DNA of 44,985 bases from Endomicrobium sp. (GTDB taxonomy: Bacteria; Elusimicrobiota; Endomicrobiia; Endomicrobiales; Endomicrobiaceae): NCBI GenBank assembly GCA_031290625.1, contig JAITND010000021.1, positions 1 to 44,985 of the forward strand, written 5' to 3'. Below the pieces are notes generated by a model. The model did not search any database and was not told where the DNA came from. It saw nothing but the letters and a program-made list of their open reading frames with translations. The position numbers were made by a program, and so were the translations under genes. This document shows, one piece after another, positions 11,704-36,317 of this stretch (position 1 is its first letter; each line of letters begins with the position of its first letter).

Positions 11704-12439
11704 ATGTTAAAGAAATTAGTCGCTATGTTGTTAGTTTTTATAATGATGTGTTTGCAAGTGATGACTGACTGTGCAAGGTCTGAATGACTTAGAGGACTTA
11801 ATACAACAAGATGAAAGACTTCAACGTTTATTGGCTATGCCGATAGGCCATAATACAGACTTAGAATTCTTAAGGCAGTATTACATAGTTCGCCCAGACT
11901 TTTTGATAAACAATGAACAAGGGAGGGGAATTTACGAGTTAAGGGTTTTGGGAGATTTTCACTATCTGCAGAGGCGGTATCAATTAAATCATTTAGATGC
12001 GGAACAGGAACCTGCTCCTGTAGCTGAATCGCCAACGGTATGGCAGAGAATAAAAGCGAACCCGGGTGTTGTCGCGGTGGCTGTGGGTGCTGTAGTGGTG
12101 GGTGTAATGGCGTTGCTGTATTATTATAATCGGCGTGCAAGGACAGGCGGTACAGAACCACAGCCGGAAGCGCCTCAATCTGGGGGAAAAAGAGAAGCAG
12201 TAGCGACTAGAGCAGAAGCCCCAGCGCTTCAGTCGGCGGTAGTAACACCACTACCACCAGCACCAGTAGCCCCAGCAGTGACAGCGCCTCAGTCGCCGGT
12301 AGTAACACCGCTACCACCAGCGCCAGTAGCCCCAGCAGTGACAGCGCCTCAGTCGCCGGTAGTAACACCACTACCACCAGCGCCAGTAGCCCCAGCAGTA
12401 AGTAGCGGGGCCCAGTACCAAAGCCAAGCGCCAATTTGA
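11704..12439 (+). pseudogene. secreted Pro/Ala-repeat protein, frameshifted by a 4-bp duplication
   Basis: An ATG at 11704 encodes a signal peptide (MLKKLVAMLLVFIMMCLQVM). The frame stops at about 11787. Removing one copy of the tandem ACTG in atgactgactgtg (about 11761-11771) joins it to QGLNDLEDLIQQDERLQRLL and a frame open to 12439. The mature part has an acidic helical region, one membrane segment (VVAVAVGAVVVGVMALLYYY, about residues 100-119 of the second frame), then a Pro/Ala tail of three 20-residue repeats. The signal peptide would export it; the internal segment would anchor it with the repeats as an extended stalk. The base composition is much more GC-rich than its neighbours. The start of the signal peptide is shared with the gene at 12864. 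Function unknown. Confidence 0.6.
12241..12400 (+). repeat. 60-bp tandem repeat, 2.7 copies
   Basis: Units at 12241-12300, 12301-12360 and 12361-12400 (partial) are nearly identical, differing at a few positions. Each encodes a 20-residue Pro/Val/Ala block (TPLPPAPVAPAVTAPQSPVV). The near identity suggests recent expansion by slippage or unequal recombination. Confidence 0.95.
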
Positions 12440-12657: not shown

Positions 12658-12863
12658 AATATATGGATGAAGAGCAGAGAATGGTACGGACTTGGTTTGA
12701 ACAGATGAACTGAGTTCCCACTTGAACCACAAACAGTATGGCAGTAGTGGACAGATTCAGATGACGATGACTAGAGAGCAGTCAGATTGCCAGCGTTTTC
12801 AGTTTGGAAAGTTTGGAAGTACAGATTTAAAAGACAGAAACGAATAAAACAAGGATGGTGATT

Positions 12864-13505
12864 ATGATAGAAAAGTCTCCAGGAAAGAAATTAGTCGTTA
12901 TGATATTGGCAGCAACTTTGGTTGCCGCTACAGTTGTAACTCCAAGAGCGTTTGCGAATAATGAAGATAGGGTGGAACAGGTTGCTGTTGCTTTTAGACC
13001 ACCAGTGATTTCGCCTGAAGAAGCGCTACGACAGTGGGAAGAGGACTGGGAACGATTATCACAGCTAAATCGGGGTATGGTTGAGCGTGAGGATGCGGTG
13101 TCGGAAAGAGTTTTAGAGGCAGCGGATTTTGAGTTTTCACTTTTTCCCCTCGCGGTGGAGTTTGTACGGCCAGAGCAGGGGACAGAACGGGAATTGCAGT
13201 GGCAAGACCGGGGGCGGCAGATGCGGGAATGGGGACAGCGGGTACGAGAACGGCGACTGCAACTGCTACGGCAACAGCAACATCAGCGACAGGAATGGCA
13301 ACAGGAACAGCAATGGCAGCGGCAACAGGATGCGGAGCGCAGGTGTCGTCGCAATTTACAACCGATACCTCAGGATGAAGCGGTTGCATTGTCAAGAAAA
13401 GATATTTTTGGCCGCTTGGTCACCATGGTCGCCTACTGGATATGTATATTTAAAATTTGTAATCCTATTTTGGCAAGACCAATATATGTACAGAGACCGA
13501 TATAG
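12864..13505 (+). CDS. secreted Gln-rich protein, C-terminus probably frameshifted
   Basis: The start at 12864 is chosen because AAGGA (12851-12855) is ideally spaced for it; the ATG at 12855 overlaps that site. A signal peptide (KKLVVMILAATLVAATVV, then TPRAFA with an A-F-A cleavage site) is followed by an acidic region and a strongly Gln/Arg-rich segment (QWQQEQQWQRQQDAERR), likely a coiled coil. The last 40 residues (from about 13400) change abruptly to a hydrophobic composition, and another frame looks equally coding there, so the native C-terminus is probably lost. The signal peptide is related in DNA and protein to that of 11704. Function unknown. Confidence 0.5.
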   Translation: MIEKSPGKKLVVMILAATLVAATVVTPRAFANNEDRVEQVAVAFRPPVISPEEALRQWEEDWERLSQLNRGMVEREDAVSERVLEAADFEFSLFPLAVEFVRPEQGTERELQWQDRGRQMREWGQRVRERRLQLLRQQQHQRQEWQQEQQWQRQQDAERRCRRNLQPIPQDEAVALSRKDIFGRLVTMVAYWICIFKICNPILARPIYVQRPI

Positions 13506-26263: not shown

Positions 26264-26825
26264 TTTTGACAAAAAAAAAGCTCAAGAAGCTATAAGACTT
26301 TTGCTTGAATCTTTTGGAGAAGATTTAAACAGAGAAGGTCTTAGACGCACTCCCGAAAGAGTAGCTGAGTTTTATAAAGAAGCTTTATCAGGCAATGAAG
26401 TTGACTCTTCGGAACTTGTTCCAGTTCACTATGCTTCGGAAGAGCATGAAGAAATAATACTTGTTAAAGACATACCGTTTTATTCGTTGTGCGAGCACCA
26501 CCTTTTGCCTTTTTTCGGCAAAGCTTGCGCGGCGTATATGCCGCGTAAAGATAAAATAGTAGGCGTATCAAAACTTGTAAGGCTTGTGGAAGTTTTCGCT
26601 AATAGACTTCAGTTGCAAGAAAGACTTACAAAACAAGTCGCTGATACTATAATGAAGTCAATAGATCCGCATGGAGTCATGGTTGTTATTGAAGCTGAAC
26701 ATTTGTGCATGACAATGAGAGGCGTTAAAAAACCGGGAACCAAGATTCTCACTTCAGCCATGAGAGGAATATTTTTAAAAGACGTAAGAACTCGTTGCGA
26801 GGCAATGTCTCTTTTGGGAAGATAA
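26250..26825 (+). CDS. folE: GTP cyclohydrolase I
   Basis: This is the first enzyme of tetrahydrofolate synthesis, making dihydroneopterin triphosphate from GTP. The zinc ligands are in SLCEHHLLPF and in EAEHLCMTMRGVKKPG; the GVSKLVRLVEVFANRLQLQE segment is conserved. I place the start at GTG 26250 (191 residues), inside the ftsH end, with GGGAAA upstream. A TTG at 26229 is possible but unsupported. folP follows immediately. Confidence 0.95.
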   Translation: MKKFNFDKKKAQEAIRLLLESFGEDLNREGLRRTPERVAEFYKEALSGNEVDSSELVPVHYASEEHEEIILVKDIPFYSLCEHHLLPFFGKACAAYMPRKDKIVGVSKLVRLVEVFANRLQLQERLTKQVADTIMKSIDPHGVMVVIEAEHLCMTMRGVKKPGTKILTSAMRGIFLKDVRTRCEAMSLLGR

Positions 26826-26827
26826 AA

Positions 26828-27994
26828 TTGATAACAAGAAAAGCTGCGGTAAATAATTTTAATGATGCTTTAAAACTTGTAAAAAATACCGGTTGCAGCG
26901 CCGTAGTTTATGAATCTTTGGCAAAAAAAGGCATTCTTGAACCTATAAGTATAGAAAAGATAGATAATAGAGCGGCAAATATTTTAAAACAAGAGGCTAT
27001 TTCCGTAGGCGCTGACGTAGCTTTGAGCGAGGATATCGGCAGATTTAAACGGGGATTTTCGGACGTAGCGTTATTTGCGACTATATCTCAGCTTGGCAAA
27101 CTAGCGGACAAACTTAGCTTTCAGCCTTTTGGTTTAAAACAGCTTGCCGGAGATTTTAAAAAAATAATAAGCAAAAGAAAAATTTTTAGATATAAAAACA
27201 AATCTTTGGATTTAACAAACCCAATTGTTATGGGTATAGTGAATATGGATCCGAATTCTTTTTCTGGCGATGGGTTAACCGGTCATGATAAAGCTTTAGA
27301 ACAAGCCGTTGAGTTTGAAAGGTTGGGGGCTGGAATTATAGACATTGGCGCGGAGTCTTCAAGACCGGGCGTAAAGCTTGTTGATGTTAAAACCGAGATA
27401 AAAAGATTGCTTCCCGCCTTAAAAAGAATAAGAAGACATGTTAAAATTCCTATTTCTATAGATACTTACAAATACGAAACTGCAAAAGTCGCGTTGTCAG
27501 AAGGCGCCGATATAATCAATGATATTTTTTCTTTAAGAAAAGGCAAAGACAAATTGGCTAAACTTGTGGCGGATGCAAAAGCCGGGTTGATACTTATGCA
27601 CATGAAAGGTCTGCCCAAGAATATGCAGATTGAGCCGAAATATAAAAATTGTACTTCTGAAGTTTACGAATTCCTTTCTGAAAGGAAGTCTTATGCTATG
27701 GAATTTGGGATACAAGAAGAGTATATTGCCGTAGATCCGGGACCCGGGTTTGGCAAGACAGTTAAACACAATATGGAACTAGTAAAGAATATGAGCGTTT
27801 TCTCTACGCTTGGAGCGGTAGTCGGGGCGGTATCGCGAAAACGATTTGTAAGATCTTTGGCGGGCGAAGATAAAACGTCGTTTATAACCGCTAACTTTCT
27901 TACAGCGTTTTGCGGAGCTGATATTGTAAGAGTTCATGACGTCAAAGAAACTGTCAACGTTTTTGAAATAATAGAAACTTTTAGAGGAATATAA
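26828..27994 (+). CDS. folP: dihydropteroate synthase, with N-terminal extension
   Basis: It joins 6-hydroxymethyl-dihydropterin diphosphate to p-aminobenzoate. The TIM-barrel domain begins near residue 125 with NPIVMGIVNMDPNSFSGDG and continues with DIGAESSRPG, SIDTYKYETA, LILMHMKG, AVDPGPGFGKTVKHN and RVHDV. The loop usually reads TPDSFSDGG, so this version is divergent. About 120 N-terminal residues precede the barrel, as in longer DHPS forms. The likely start is TTG 26828, three bases after the folE stop, with GGGAAG upstream. The stop overlaps the cdaA start (TAATG). Confidence 0.9.
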   Translation: MITRKAAVNNFNDALKLVKNTGCSAVVYESLAKKGILEPISIEKIDNRAANILKQEAISVGADVALSEDIGRFKRGFSDVALFATISQLGKLADKLSFQPFGLKQLAGDFKKIISKRKIFRYKNKSLDLTNPIVMGIVNMDPNSFSGDGLTGHDKALEQAVEFERLGAGIIDIGAESSRPGVKLVDVKTEIKRLLPALKRIRRHVKIPISIDTYKYETAKVALSEGADIINDIFSLRKGKDKLAKLVADAKAGLILMHMKGLPKNMQIEPKYKNCTSEVYEFLSERKSYAMEFGIQEEYIAVDPGPGFGKTVKHNMELVKNMSVFSTLGAVVGAVSRKRFVRSLAGEDKTSFITANFLTAFCGADIVRVHDVKETVNVFEIIETFRGI

Positions 27995-28761
27995 TGGAAA
28001 CATTGGTTGCTATTTATAACCTATATATTTCGCATGTCTTAGATATATTTATTCTTACGTTAATATTTTATAGAATAATCCTTATAATACAAGGAACAAG
28101 GACAATACAGATATTTATTGGCATATTGTTCATATTAGGATTAACCATAGTCTCCAGAGATATCTTACATTTGAAAGCGTTGTCTTGGCTTTTGGATAAT
28201 TTTTGGCTTGCGGCCGTTATTATATTTGCCGTGATCTTCCAGACTGAAATAAGAAATCTTCTTGCTCAGATAGGCGGACGTCTATGGGGAGCAAAGTCAA
28301 AAATCAAAGATTCTTATATTATTGAAATAGTCGACGCGATTGAGGATTTAAGCTCTTCAATGACAGGTTGCCTTATTGCTATAGAAAATGAAATTGGCTT
28401 AAAGAGTTTTACTGAGACGGGAGTGCTTCTTAATGCCGATATTTCAAGAGAACTGCTTCTTTCAATTTTTAAAAATAAATCTGCCCCTTTGCATGACGGC
28501 GCAATTATAATTTCCAACGGTAGGATAGTGTCCGCAGGCTGCGTTCTCCCTTTGAGCCATGACACAAATGTAAAATTGTTTGGAACAAGACATAGAGCCG
28601 CGCTTGGATTAAGCGAAGTGACGGACTCTGTTGTGGTAGTCGTTTCGGAAGAAACAGGGCAAATTTCGGTGGCTCATGACGGTAAGCTGCATGGGAATAA
28701 CTCTCTGTCAAAACTTCAGGAGATAATTAATACAAACGGCGAGGTCTTAAGAACAAAATGA
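27994..28761 (+). CDS. cdaA: diadenylate cyclase CdaA (DisA_N domain)
   Basis: This 255-residue membrane enzyme makes c-di-AMP from two ATP. Three N-terminal helices (about 15-80) are followed by the DAC domain, with the catalytic DGA in APLHDGAIII (168-170) and GTRHRAALGLSEVTDS (RHR motif). c-di-AMP controls potassium and osmolyte balance and cell-wall stability. The gene sits in the classical cdaA-cdaR-glmM order, but cdaR is reduced to a stub. Presence of cdaA suggests c-di-AMP signalling is kept in this reduced genome. Confidence 0.95.
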   Translation: METLVAIYNLYISHVLDIFILTLIFYRIILIIQGTRTIQIFIGILFILGLTIVSRDILHLKALSWLLDNFWLAAVIIFAVIFQTEIRNLLAQIGGRLWGAKSKIKDSYIIEIVDAIEDLSSSMTGCLIAIENEIGLKSFTETGVLLNADISRELLLSIFKNKSAPLHDGAIIISNGRIVSAGCVLPLSHDTNVKLFGTRHRAALGLSEVTDSVVVVVSEETGQISVAHDGKLHGNNSLSKLQEIINTNGEVLRTK

Positions 28762-28856
28762 CAAAGTTATTTGTTAAAATTAAAAAAAATTGGCGTCTGA
28801 AAGCGCTCGCGCTTATTCTTGCGATTTTTGTATGGCTGTATGCGAGATATATGTAA
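28758..28856 (+). CDS. 32-residue CdaR/YbbR N-terminal stub
   Basis: An ATG overlapping the cdaA stop (ATGA) opens a 32-codon frame with a basic start, then NWRLKALALILAIFVWLYAR, ending at TAA 28854-28856, one base before glmM. That hydrophobic segment preceded by NWxLK is how CdaR (YbbR-domain) proteins begin. Normally several hundred residues of extracytoplasmic YbbR repeats follow, and these are absent. Coupling to both neighbours is preserved, so either this is a clean deletion remnant or the single helix is kept for a purpose, such as contacting the CdaA membrane domain. The family call rests on the helix and position only. Confidence 0.6.
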   Translation: MTKLFVKIKKNWRLKALALILAIFVWLYARYM

Positions 28857-28857
28857 A

Positions 28858-30195
28858 ATGAAACTATTTGGCACAGATGGCATTAGGGGAGACTCTTCTA
28901 AATTCCCGTTTGATAATTCCACTCTTAATATCATAGGTCGTTGTATAGCCGAAGTTTTAGACGTAAATAAGAGTATTCTTATTATTCGCGATACTAGAAA
29001 ATCAGGCAAAAGGATACAAGCGAAACTTTCTGAAGGCATGTCTATGGCAGGAACAAAAACAGTGTTTGGAGGCATTATGCCGACGCCAGCGGCTTCGTTG
29101 CTTTTAAAAAAAGGAAAATACCGCGCGGCAGTCGTTATATCTGCAAGCCATAACCCTTATATGGACAACGGGATTAAAATTTTTAATTCTAACGGATATA
29201 AACTTTCAGAGTCAATAGAAGAAAAAATAGAAGCAAAGATAAATAAATACATTGCTTCAAAAGACATTTTTCCAAGAAAAAAGATTTCCTTAAAAGAAAA
29301 TTCAAAACTTATAAAGTTTTACGAAAATTTTATTGTAAAAAATTTCTCAGGCAAGAAACTTAAAGGCAAGACCATAGTTTTGGATTGCGCTAACGGCGCT
29401 TCTTATAAATGCGCTCCGCGTATTTTAAAAAGACTGGGTGCAAGCGTCATAACGTTAAACGCTAATCCTGATGGTAAGAATATAAATTTAAATTGCGGTT
29501 CTTTACACCCGCAATCTCTGTGTAAAGCCGTAAAAGAATATAATGCTTTTTGCGGATTTGCTTTTGACGGAGATGCCGATAGATTGATATGCGTTGATGA
29601 AAACGGCGTAATAAGAGACGGAGATTATTTTTTATCTGCAATGTCGGTATGGTTGAAGAGCAAAAAGAAGCTTAAAAACAATATTTTAGTTTCAACCGTT
29701 ATGGCAAATATTGGATTGTTCCGCGCTTTAAAGAGAGAAAAAATAAAAGTCATATCTTCTAAAGTCGGCGACAGATACGTTATGGAAGATATGAAGAAAC
29801 ATAAAGCCTCGCTTGGCGGCGAGCAGTCAGGACACTTTATATTTAAAGATATATTAGCTACTGGCGACGGACTCTTGAGTTCTGTTATGATTCTTTCGGC
29901 TTTGAGCGTCGCAAGTAAAACAATGTCGGAGTTCATGAACGTTATTGAGAAATTTCCGCAGGTTTTGGTAAATAGAAAGCTAACAAAGAAAATTCCTATT
30001 GAAAATCTTCCTAAGTCTTATAATCTAATAAAAACTTGCGAAAAATCTCTCGGTTCCGATGGACGCGTGCTTGTAAGATATTCGGGTACGGAAAATCTTT
30101 TGAGGGTTATGGTCGAAGGTAAAGACGTTGACGAGATTCGGTCTATTGCCGAAAGTATAGCCGACTCGGTTGAGAAAGAGACGTCTCTACAATAA
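28858..30195 (+). CDS. glmM: phosphoglucosamine mutase
   Basis: It converts glucosamine-6-phosphate to glucosamine-1-phosphate for UDP-GlcNAc, peptidoglycan and lipid A. The start MKLFGTDGIRGDS fixes the ATG at 28858. The phosphoserine loop is VVISASHNPYMDNGIKIFN, the metal loop is FDGDADR and the sugar/phosphate loops include GGEQSGHFIF and RYSGTENLLRVM. About 445 residues, a normal length. In many bacteria GlmM binds CdaA and inhibits it; the adjacency here fits. Confidence 0.96.
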   Translation: MKLFGTDGIRGDSSKFPFDNSTLNIIGRCIAEVLDVNKSILIIRDTRKSGKRIQAKLSEGMSMAGTKTVFGGIMPTPAASLLLKKGKYRAAVVISASHNPYMDNGIKIFNSNGYKLSESIEEKIEAKINKYIASKDIFPRKKISLKENSKLIKFYENFIVKNFSGKKLKGKTIVLDCANGASYKCAPRILKRLGASVITLNANPDGKNINLNCGSLHPQSLCKAVKEYNAFCGFAFDGDADRLICVDENGVIRDGDYFLSAMSVWLKSKKKLKNNILVSTVMANIGLFRALKREKIKVISSKVGDRYVMEDMKKHKASLGGEQSGHFIFKDILATGDGLLSSVMILSALSVASKTMSEFMNVIEKFPQVLVNRKLTKKIPIENLPKSYNLIKTCEKSLGSDGRVLVRYSGTENLLRVMVEGKDVDEIRSIAESIADSVEKETSLQ

Positions 30196-30211: not shown

Positions 30212-30949
30212 ATGATTAAATTAGGCGTAAATATTGACCACATAGCTACGTTGAGGCAGGCTCGCAGAGAAGGCGTTCCGTCTATTATTGAAGCCGCTCT
30301 TGTGTGCGAAAAAGCTGGCGCCGATGGAATTACCGTTCATTTAAGAGAAGACAGAAGACATATTCAAGACTATGACATTTATAGCTTGCGAGAAGTTTTA
30401 AAAACTAAATTAAATTTGGAAATGGCTGCGACTGAAGAAATTCTTAGCGTTGCCTTAGACGCTAAACCGGATTGCGTATGTATGGTTCCGGAAAAAAGAG
30501 AGGAACTTACCACCGAAGGCGGTCTTGACGTTAAAAATAACAAGGAAAATCTTTCTAGCATTGCGTCTAAGCTTAAAAAAGCTGGAATTACAGTCGGTAT
30601 ATTTATCGACGCGGATTTGGAACAAGTCGTCGCTTGTTCTGAAGTAGGGGCAGACGTGGTTGAACTGCATACTGGAAAATATTCTTTACTTTTTAGCGAA
30701 AGCGGCGCTTCGTCTAGCGAATGTAAAGACGAGCTTAAAAGAATTGCTGAAGCTTCAAAGGAAGCGAGTAAAAGAAAGCTTATATTGAACGCCGGACACG
30801 GACTTGATTACGAGAATGTAGGTCAAATCTGTAAAATTCGCGCAATGAATGAGTTTAATATAGGATTTTCAATAATCTCAAAAGCAATATTTAATGGTCT
30901 TGAAAAGGCTGTTTTTGATATGAAAAGTCTGATAGAAAAGAACTCGTAA
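30212..30949 (+). CDS. pdxJ: pyridoxine 5'-phosphate synthase
   Basis: It forms the pyridine ring of vitamin B6 from deoxyxylulose 5-phosphate and an aminoacetone phosphate. The start KLGVNIDHIATLRQARR and the segments DGITVHLREDRRHIQD, PEKREELTTEGGLD and LNAGHGLDYENV are all conserved. The ATG at 30212 has a strong GGGAGG site. About 245 residues. Placed between glmM and glmS, probably in the same transcript. Confidence 0.95.
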   Translation: MIKLGVNIDHIATLRQARREGVPSIIEAALVCEKAGADGITVHLREDRRHIQDYDIYSLREVLKTKLNLEMAATEEILSVALDAKPDCVCMVPEKREELTTEGGLDVKNNKENLSSIASKLKKAGITVGIFIDADLEQVVACSEVGADVVELHTGKYSLLFSESGASSSECKDELKRIAEASKEASKRKLILNAGHGLDYENVGQICKIRAMNEFNIGFSIISKAIFNGLEKAVFDMKSLIEKNS

Positions 30950-30975: not shown

Positions 30976-32805
30976 ATGTGCGGAATAGTAGGCTATATAG
31001 GAAAGAAAAATGCCGTAGACGTAGTTGTTGACGGATTAAAAAAACTTGAATATAGAGGATATGATTCGTCGGGCATTGCTGTTGTTAAAGACGGGCGGCT
31101 GCAGATCAGACGAAGCGTAGGCAAGTTAAAAAACCTTGAAGAAAATATAGAGAAAAGACCTTTAAAAGCCAATATATCCATAGGTCATACTCGTTGGGCT
31201 ACGCATGGGAAACCATCGGAAGAAAACGCTCACCCGCACATGGATCCAACCAAAAGCATAGTTATAGTTCATAATGGGATAATAGAAAATTATGCCGAAT
31301 TAAAATCAGTCCTTGAAAAAGAAGGTAAAAAATTTAAATCTGAAACCGATACCGAAGTAATAGCCCATCTTATAAAAAAACATTACAAAGATACTTTGCT
31401 TTGCGCAGTTCGGGAAACTCTTAAAGAAATAAGGGGTTCGTATGCGCTTGGCGTAATATGTAAAAACGAACCCAATAAAATAGTTTGCGCAAGACAAGAC
31501 GCTCCTCTTATAGTTGGCGTAGGCAAAGGGGAGAATTTTTTAGCTTCAGATATTTCAGCGTTGCTTTCTTACACGCGAGATATGATCTTTCTTGAAAATG
31601 GCGATATCGCTGAATTGACGTCTGATAAAATAATAATAACTGATATTGAAAATAACGTAAAGAATAGAGAAGTGAAAAATATAAAATGGGATTGCGTGCA
31701 AGCCGAAAAAGAAGGCTATAAACACTTCATGCTTAAAGAAATATACGAACAGCCCAGAACTATAGAGGATACTTTCAGAGGCAGAATTTATCCCGACGAA
31801 GGACGCGTTTATATTGAAGAAGTCAAACTGTCAAAAGAAGATGTTAAAAATATATCAAACATTTATATTGTTGCTTGCGGAACTGCTTATCATTCCGGGC
31901 TTGTTTCAAAATTTCTGTTTGAAAATTTTGCAAAAATACCGACGGAAGTTGATATAGCGTCGGAGTTTAGATACAGAGAGCCTATTTTAAATGAGAAGAC
32001 GCTTGTTATGATCGTTTCTCAATCGGGAGAAACGGCTGACACTTTAGCGGCTTTAAGACTTGCTAAGAGCAAAGGCTGCGTAACATTAGCGGTTTGCAAT
32101 GTTGTTGGATCTAGCATAAGCCGCGAGGCTGATCACGTAGTTTACACTCACTGCGGTCCAGAAATAGGCGTTGCGTCTACAAAAGCTTTTACTGGGCAGC
32201 TTACGGCTCTTTATATACTTGCATTAGATTGGGCGTGCAAAAAAGAAAGTCTTTCAAAAGAAAAGTTAAAAAAATATTTAAAAGAATTATGGGAAGTGCC
32301 GGTAAAAATAGGAGATTTTTTAAAACAAGCTGAAAACGTTTATGAAGTTGCCAAGAAATTTGCCCATAAAAAAGATTTCTTATATTTAGGCAGACATATA
32401 AATTATTCCATTGCTTTAGAAGGCGCTTTAAAACTTAAAGAACTTTCTTATATACACGCTGAAGGTTACGCCGCAGGTGAAATGAAGCACGGTCCCATAG
32501 CTTTGATCGACGATGATATGCCCGTGGTTTGTATAGCCGTTAAAAGCAGAATTTATGAAAAAATAAATTCAAATATTGAAGAAGCAAAAGCTAGAGGCGG
32601 TATTATTATAGTAATAGCAAGCGAGTCTGACAAAACCGCTGCGGATAAGGGATACGGCGTAATATACGTTCCGGATTGCGACGAGTTTGTTTCCCCTATT
32701 TTGTCTGTAATTCCGCTTCAACTTTTGGCTTATTATGTGGCGGTGGCGCTAGGGTGCGACGTTGACCAGCCTAGAAATCTAGCCAAATCAGTTACAGTTG
32801 AATAA
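30976..32805 (+). CDS. glmS: glutamine-fructose-6-phosphate aminotransferase
   Basis: This first enzyme of the hexosamine pathway makes glucosamine-6-phosphate from fructose-6-phosphate and glutamine. Cys2 of MCGIVGYIG is the glutaminase nucleophile. RGYDSSGIAV, HTRWATHGKPSEENAHPH and SETDTEVIAHL complete the N-terminal domain; two SIS domains follow (SQSGETADTLAAL), ending in DQPRNLAKSVTVE. 609 residues. Only 26 bases separate it from pdxJ, so no glmS ribozyme is present. Together with glmM it feeds cell-wall synthesis. Confidence 0.97.
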   Translation: MCGIVGYIGKKNAVDVVVDGLKKLEYRGYDSSGIAVVKDGRLQIRRSVGKLKNLEENIEKRPLKANISIGHTRWATHGKPSEENAHPHMDPTKSIVIVHNGIIENYAELKSVLEKEGKKFKSETDTEVIAHLIKKHYKDTLLCAVRETLKEIRGSYALGVICKNEPNKIVCARQDAPLIVGVGKGENFLASDISALLSYTRDMIFLENGDIAELTSDKIIITDIENNVKNREVKNIKWDCVQAEKEGYKHFMLKEIYEQPRTIEDTFRGRIYPDEGRVYIEEVKLSKEDVKNISNIYIVACGTAYHSGLVSKFLFENFAKIPTEVDIASEFRYREPILNEKTLVMIVSQSGETADTLAALRLAKSKGCVTLAVCNVVGSSISREADHVVYTHCGPEIGVASTKAFTGQLTALYILALDWACKKESLSKEKLKKYLKELWEVPVKIGDFLKQAENVYEVAKKFAHKKDFLYLGRHINYSIALEGALKLKELSYIHAEGYAAGEMKHGPIALIDDDMPVVCIAVKSRIYEKINSNIEEAKARGGIIIVIASESDKTAADKGYGVIYVPDCDEFVSPILSVIPLQLLAYYVAVALGCDVDQPRNLAKSVTVE

Positions 32806-34439: not shown

Positions 34440-34820
34440 ATGGATACAAAATTGATAAAGACAAGCGTCGTAAAGAAAATTAAAGCTTTGGAAATTGCTT
34501 GCGGCGTTAAATGTAAAGCGGACTGCGTTCCCATTGGTAACGCTTTAATAAACACGTCTGAGATTAGCGAAGCCCGTATAAAAACAGCTAGAGAATTTTA
34601 CGGCGAAAAAAATATTGAAATATTGCAGAAACAGTCTATGGGCGGTGAAGATTTTTCACAATATTTAATCGAAGTTCCGGGGAGTTTTATCTATATAGGA
34701 ACGTCAAAAGATAAACATACGTCTTACCCTTGGCGTCGCCGCAATTTTAATGTAGATGAAGCGGTTCTTCCGAAAGCGTCTAAGTATATTGCATATGCTT
34801 TAGAATCGTTTTTAAAATAA
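34440..34820 (+). pseudogene. C-terminal fragment of an M20-family aminoacylase/hippurate hydrolase
   Basis: Only the last 126 residues of an M20D-type metallohydrolase remain: the end of the lid domain, then SMGGEDFSQYLIEVPGSFIY (a conserved catalytic-domain segment) and FNVDEAVLPKASKYIAYALE. The first 250 or so residues, with most metal ligands, are missing. The late metal histidine (usually HHxxF before the D/NxDE) is replaced by YPWRRRNF. The remaining frame is open and starts with an ATG but lacks a ribosome site. It cannot be a working peptidase. Confidence 0.8.
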
Positions 34821-35502: not shown

Positions 35503-36317
35503 ATGAACTATAAAGGCTACTGGTGTTTGCAATTACACGCTCGCCGCCCATACGTAAGACATCCTGAATATCCCGATTTCTTGGAAGAAGACTGGCTTTA
35601 TGAAGCAATTACCGAAACATATCTTCCTTTGCTTTCAGTGTTTGAAAAATTTGTTGAAGACAGAATAGATTTTAGAATTACTATGACCATAACGCCGTCT
35701 TTAGCGAACATGCTTTCAGACAACCTTCTGCAGTTTCGTTATTATGAAAGATTGAATAAACAAATAGAGCTTTCAGAAAAAGAACTTTCAAGAACGCAAA
35801 ACAGCGTTGAATTTAAGCCTGTTGCTCAAATGTATTATGACCGTTTTCAAAATTGTAAAAGATTGTGGGTGGAATAAATACGGCGGCAATATGCTTACAG
35901 GTTTCAAAAGGCTGCAGGATTTAGGCAAACTTGAAATTATCACCTGCTGCGCTACGCATGGTTTTCTACCTTTGATGAACAATGAAAAAGCCCAAAAGGC
36001 GCAGATAAGCATAGCCTGCAAAGATTACGAAAGACATTTTGGAGTTAGGCCGAAAGGAATATGGCTTTCTGAATGCGCTTATTATCCGGGAATAGATAAA
36101 ATATTAAAAGAGGAAAATTTAAAGTATTTCTTTCTTGAGTCGCAAGGCGTTTTGTATGCTACTCCGCGTCCTAAATACGGCGTTTTTGCTCCTGTTTACT
36201 GCAATAGCGGAGTTGCGGTTTTTTTCAAGAGATATGGAGACTGCAAGCCAAGTTTGGAGCGCAGAAACTGGGTATCATGGAGATCCAGCTTATAGAGAAT
36301 TTTATAGAGATTTAGGA
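35503..36317 (+). pseudogene. GH57/DUF1957 alpha-glucan branching enzyme, two frameshifts and truncation
   Basis: Starts well (GAGG, ATG 35503; YKGYWCLQLHARRPYVRHPE, then FLEEDWLYEAITETYLPLL). Most family members have HAHLP where HARRP stands, so one catalytic-domain histidine is already lost. The frame breaks near 35855, resumes as GGNMLTGFKRLQDLGKLEII, TCCATHGFLPLM and GIWLSECAYYPGIDKIL, and breaks again at a seven-T run near 36218. With six T it continues SRDMETASQVWSAETGYHGD and PAYREFYRDLG, then ends about 36317. The remaining two fifths, including the C-terminal domain, are deleted and the gene runs into the HD-GYP remnant. Confidence 0.85.

Follow-up and report, generated by a model that had tools for sequence, protein, structure and literature searches.

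In the operon order cdaA-cdaR-glmM (PMC8573169), the gene between cdaA and glmM encodes CdaR, and how CdaR acts on CdaA has been stated to be unclear (PMC8573169, PMC10243994). The Endomicrobium contig studied here (JAITND010000021.1; the window, meaning the whole stretch of 44,985 nucleotides that was analysed) has a cdaA, a glmM and a glmS-like gene that mirror the Firmicutes order cdaA-cdaR-glmM(-glmS), and a frame of 32 codons lies in the place of cdaR (Table 1). We asked whether this frame is the remnant of a gene or a gene in its own right. The first-pass annotation had described it as a CdaR reduced to one membrane helix, coupled to cdaA by an ATGA, one base away from glmM and about 32 residues long, and the coordinates 28758–28856 confirm this layout. 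The ATG at 28758 overlaps the cdaA stop codon TGA (28759–28761) as ATGA, and the stop codon TAA (28854–28856) is followed, one base on, by the glmM ATG at 28858. The product, MTKLFVKIKKNWRLKALALILAIFVWLYARYM (32 aa), has a single hydrophobic segment, with residues 16–32 averaging 1.9 on the Kyte-Doolittle scale.

Table 1. Features of the cdaA-glmM region, in window coordinates
Feature	Position	Strand	Remark
folP-like frame (Pterin_bind)	26795..27994	+	start codon uncertain
cdaA, diadenylate cyclase	27994..28761	+	CdaA_N PF19293 + DAC PF02457
helix-only CdaR microprotein, 32 aa	28758..28856	+	stop codon included
conserved core N11 to W26, one-sided stripe N11, K15, A18, A22, W26	28788..28835	+	
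glmM, phosphoglucosamine mutase	28858..30195	+	
pdxJ-like gene, next after glmM	30212..30949	+	named from sequence alone
glmS-like gene	30976..32805	+	named from sequence alone

The CdaA of the window is complete, scoring 35.5 bits for PF19293 and 142.6 bits for PF02457, its translation has the HDGA and GTRHRAA motifs intact, and its gene is the sole DAC match in the source genome. The last base of the folP-like frame is the first base of cdaA; a folP immediately 5' of cdaA is common to the window (26795–27994) and Bacteroides finegoldii (L183), the latter without a cdaR after cdaA. A search for YbbR gave no match in the source genome (1.18 Mb; the genome is 89% complete) and none in any of the 77 family genomes, which include it, and the same search was positive in four control genomes. 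Relocation of the YbbR domain to another place in the genome was thus rejected for the source genome and for the family, and none of these family genomes was found to carry a full-length cdaR. The earlier claim that the whole YbbR domain is missing while the helix is kept held up on both counts, as the helix matches the membrane helix of CdaR (see below).

The nearest named relatives of the source genome are Candidatus Endomicrobiellum MAGs (L031, CdaA identity 96%). Genus mates in Endomicrobium carry the same frame after cdaA, usually with the ATGA overlap, and a check of the sister species, which the annotation had proposed together with a selection test, found the short frame (hereafter the stub) and its helix kept in nearly all of them. 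Over 27 codons in Endomicrobium, pN/pS is 0.30 in frame, compared with 0.80 and 1.17 for frames offset by one and two bases. Purifying selection acts on the 32-codon frame, a conserved coding gene, and a recent pseudogene is ruled out by the conservation and the pN/pS value. Frame-disrupting changes were seen in a few exceptions among the sisters. In one genome (G027), stop codons and a change of frame disrupt cdaA, and the stub is broken too; in a genus mate (L012) and its near-copy (L038), W26 is replaced by R and an early stop follows, and the loss of the stub may be under way there. Two other genomes (G005 and G014) have no glmM behind cdaA and pdxJ comes next, with cdaA and the stub both intact. 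The G014 locus (L022) had been considered as a broken cdaA without a stub; this was rejected, the stop being the end of cdaA and an intact in-frame stub following it.

We then looked at the stub across Elusimicrobiota, in a sample of 123 loci with a window-type CdaA. The stubs share a 20-residue core, [K/R]NWxLKLL[A/S]LxL[A/S]xxxWxY, and a profile of this core, built iteratively from the same 123 loci that were scored, found it beside or fused to cdaA at more than 30 bits in 114 of them, with 432 shuffled regions reaching at most 2.4 bits. Most stubs score 39–67 bits; the window copy scores 59.7 bits, and the runner-up among 34,493 six-frame windows scores 8.4. The core was missing next to cdaA in nine loci, belonging to families f8 (five), f23 and f24 (two) and to genome G081, where an intact stub lies directly before glmM and cdaA is on another contig. 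CdaA of f8, f23 and f24 has no adjacent stub and can therefore do without it. A second profile, made of 36 members, was searched in 341 genomes of the phylum and gave matches in 181 of them at E ≤ 0.1 and in 157 at E ≤ 1e-3, every one of the 157 also having a cdaA match; the window copy, itself one of the 36 profile rows, matched this profile with E = 1.1e-13. Family f13 is largely without cdaA and its stub matches are at chance level, the exception being one genome (G181) in which both were found. In the loci of family f18 that were read, the stub in most cases still overlaps cdaA or directly adjoins it, and no glmM match lies within about 1.2 kb after cdaA. Of the 341 genomes, no more than 5 gave a match to a YbbR domain.

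The genomes that bear the stub include ones of 2–4 Mb in different parts of the phylum, and the helix-only form is therefore ancient. The annotation was right that the frame is a helix matching that of CdaR, whereas the reading as a reduction within this termite symbiont does not stand. Its view that this is not random decay is supported by the pN/pS value of 0.30 and by the core in 114 of 123 loci. That almost the entire phylum has the stub beside cdaA, or at times fused to it, suggests that selection maintains no more of CdaR than its helix. No family was detected for the stubs with Pfam and NCBIfam models, and the stubs constitute a microprotein family that these models have overlooked.

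To relate the stub to CdaR, we ran the stub profile over all six frames of reference loci, canonical operons drawn from a plasmid collection. In four of five Firmicutes loci (L176, L177, L180, and L182), the best match of the whole locus was the first helix of CdaR, or of the long frame in its place. The first helices of CdaR score 17–24 bits, and the next best separate match in those four loci reaches 11.2 bits (L176). In the fifth locus (L181), the first helix of CdaR was not the best match, and the three loci with no cdaR next to cdaA (L178, L179, and L183) gave no match to the profile. Over about 20 residues, the stub helix is most likely homologous to the anchor of CdaR. Firmicutes CdaR likewise is encoded between cdaA and glmM and has a single membrane helix with this core at its N-terminus, but it carries YbbR and has 331–433 aa in three annotated proteins, compared with 32 aa and no YbbR here. 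The microprotein thus has the CdaR-type helix and the gene place between cdaA and glmM and lacks the defining feature of the CdaR family, YbbR (PF07949); by its domains, therefore, we do not count it as a member of that family, but as a helix-only form of this kind of regulator.

The helix also occurs as part of CdaA itself. In three loci (L061 in G067, L080 in G098, and L084 in G099), the CdaA chain runs on without a break from its C-terminus into the stub, and L061 lies on a different branch of the CdaA tree from L080 and L084; the stub has been fused to CdaA at least twice, and CdaA is its only fusion partner. In the 30 loci of family f28 that were read, a helix of this type (ENWREKLIAVAVSLLLWVFFVGIG, for instance) closes the CdaA chain, and no YbbR domain follows; a CdaA match of this type was found in 43 of the 44 genomes of the family. 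Having a fourth membrane helix at the C-terminus and lacking YbbR, these proteins (L146–L175) represent a distinct CdaA architecture. In f25, in two genomes of f27 and in the second CdaA of G057, the chain of CdaA and helix runs on into a YbbR domain. CdaA-CdaR fusion proteins have been reported in some streptococci (PMC10243994); those and the fusions found here (L047–L050) have a CdaR-type helix on the C-terminus of CdaA, as do L061, L080, L084 and f28, but they carry YbbR, whereas the latter end right after the helix. In the CdaA tree, a quick tree with long branches, the YbbR-bearing fusions branch outside f28, with a support of 96 setting L047 apart and a support of 87, under the mark of 95, setting L048 apart. 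This placement speaks for a loss of YbbR in which the helix stayed, and f28 has probably lost YbbR independently in this way. It is solely this second CdaA lineage that suggests descent of the microprotein by shortening of a full-length CdaR, not a gain of YbbR elsewhere. It should be noted that G057 holds both types of CdaA, one with a separate stub and glmM (L104) and one with the fused helix and YbbR (L105/L047). In L047, L049 and L050, the fused gene has behind it a phosphoesterase-like frame, apparently of the DHH/DHHA1 type, which may encode a hydrolase of c-di-AMP or pAp.

Given that so little of CdaR is present, we considered how a helix could act on the cyclase. N11, K15, A/S18, A/S22 and W26 give the helix one strongly conserved face, and positions 18 and 22 are A or S in all 114 members. 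To judge from this residue pattern, a stripe of small residues between the cytoplasmic Asn and Lys and the outer Trp would be easier to reconcile with a specific contact between helices than with simple anchoring. Covariation between residues of the stub and of CdaA had no preference for the membrane region of CdaA. Contact of CdaR with CdaA is reported to be made by membrane domains (PMC10243994), and GlmM keeps CdaA from forming active oligomers and so inhibits it (PMC8573169). In view of the one-sided stripe and of this block of CdaA oligomers, we propose that the microprotein may be a constitutive subunit determining how CdaA is arranged in the membrane. It would be inserted so that the basic N-terminus lies in the cytoplasm, like that of CdaR, and the face formed by N11, K15, A18, A22 and W26 would pack against the three membrane helices of CdaA. 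A small subunit of this kind would fix an arrangement of the cyclase that either permits or limits c-di-AMP synthesis; YbbR-type input from outside the membrane would be lost, and cytoplasmic control, for example by GlmM, would be left.

In our preferred reading, to which we give a probability of roughly 0.6, the microprotein is a CdaR stripped to the helix that would dock on CdaA, a working microprotein without YbbR that serves as an obligate small subunit of the cyclase. Single-helix small subunits of membrane enzymes, such as CydX and KdpF, have about 30 residues and are encoded beside the large partner. The microprotein resembles them in size, in its one helix and in a gene adjoining that of a large membrane partner; the partner is a different one, and the comparison is of kind only, with no sequence relation claimed. 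More tentatively, at odds that we would put a little short of even, the membrane helix would be the essential core of CdaR, and a microprotein found throughout Elusimicrobiota would control c-di-AMP synthesis by intramembrane packing alone, the stripped state having arisen at least twice, once with a gene of its own and once as a fourth helix at the C-terminus of CdaA.

A true subunit of CdaA could also have a different origin, as an independent single-helix partner that came to resemble the CdaR anchor by convergence. The similarity covers only about 20 hydrophobic residues, the CdaR helices score 17–24 bits against 39–67 for most stubs, and one reference locus (L181) fails. However, the gene occupies the same place between cdaA and glmM, the helix at the start of CdaR is the best whole-locus match in four of five loci, and the CdaA-helix-YbbR fusions of the same phylum join the helix to YbbR, so that we consider convergence unlikely. 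A role with some other partner in the membrane or envelope, or in recruiting GlmM to the membrane, with co-transcription as the only tie to cdaA, is also quite unlikely. The stub that stays with glmM and away from cdaA in G081 would agree with this, but the stub is fused to CdaA only, it stays with cdaA where no glmM lies behind, and every genome with a match at E ≤ 1e-3 has cdaA.

Two further readings give the peptide no function. The frame could couple the translation of cdaA to that of glmM and encode an inert peptide, for which the ATGA overlap and the one-base gap in the window are well suited; the conservation of residues across the phylum, the pN/pS value of 0.30, the fusions to CdaA and the stubs that are kept without glmM behind them or away from cdaA make this very improbable. 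Or the frame could be what is left of a cdaR that decays as the symbiont genome shrinks. With 1.18 Mb the genome is small, and other genes of the window look broken, but the same stub in genomes of 2–4 Mb across the phylum and the selection on its residues leave this reading hardly credible.

In the open-access literature, which leaves subscription papers mostly outside, searches on small or truncated CdaR, on diadenylate cyclases of Elusimicrobia and on c-di-AMP in Endomicrobium returned nothing relevant, and we found no published description of a helix-only CdaR there. Searches of the PDB brought up DAC domains, GlmM and YbbR domains and no CdaR helix. The entry 9g69 was considered as a complex of full-length CdaA and rejected, as it holds, according to a published description, the DAC domain together with GlmM. 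A natural CdaR with the helix alone separates the intramembrane effect from YbbR sensing, and the natural fusions of CdaA and helix offer a minimal single-chain form for structural work.

Some other features of the window and the source genome were recorded. At 35503–36292, a glycoside hydrolase family 57 domain extends over two overlapping frames (PF03065 positions 3–68 and 83–201), likely a frameshifted gene, and a DUF4912 protein precedes it. A 126-aa frame at 34440–34817 matches the C-terminal part only of the Peptidase_M20 model and is likely a gene remnant. Two frames without a Pfam match, at 11771–12436 and 12855–13502, include one with repeated proline-rich units (VVTPLPPAPVAPAVTAPQSP) and one rich in Q and R. 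A PgpH-type domain (PF07697) is absent from the source genome (G000), which has two DHH proteins (L190 and L191; C7 and C14). One of them resembles RecJ; the second, encoded by a stand-alone 330-aa frame with truB- and infB-like genes as neighbours, is a candidate c-di-AMP hydrolase.
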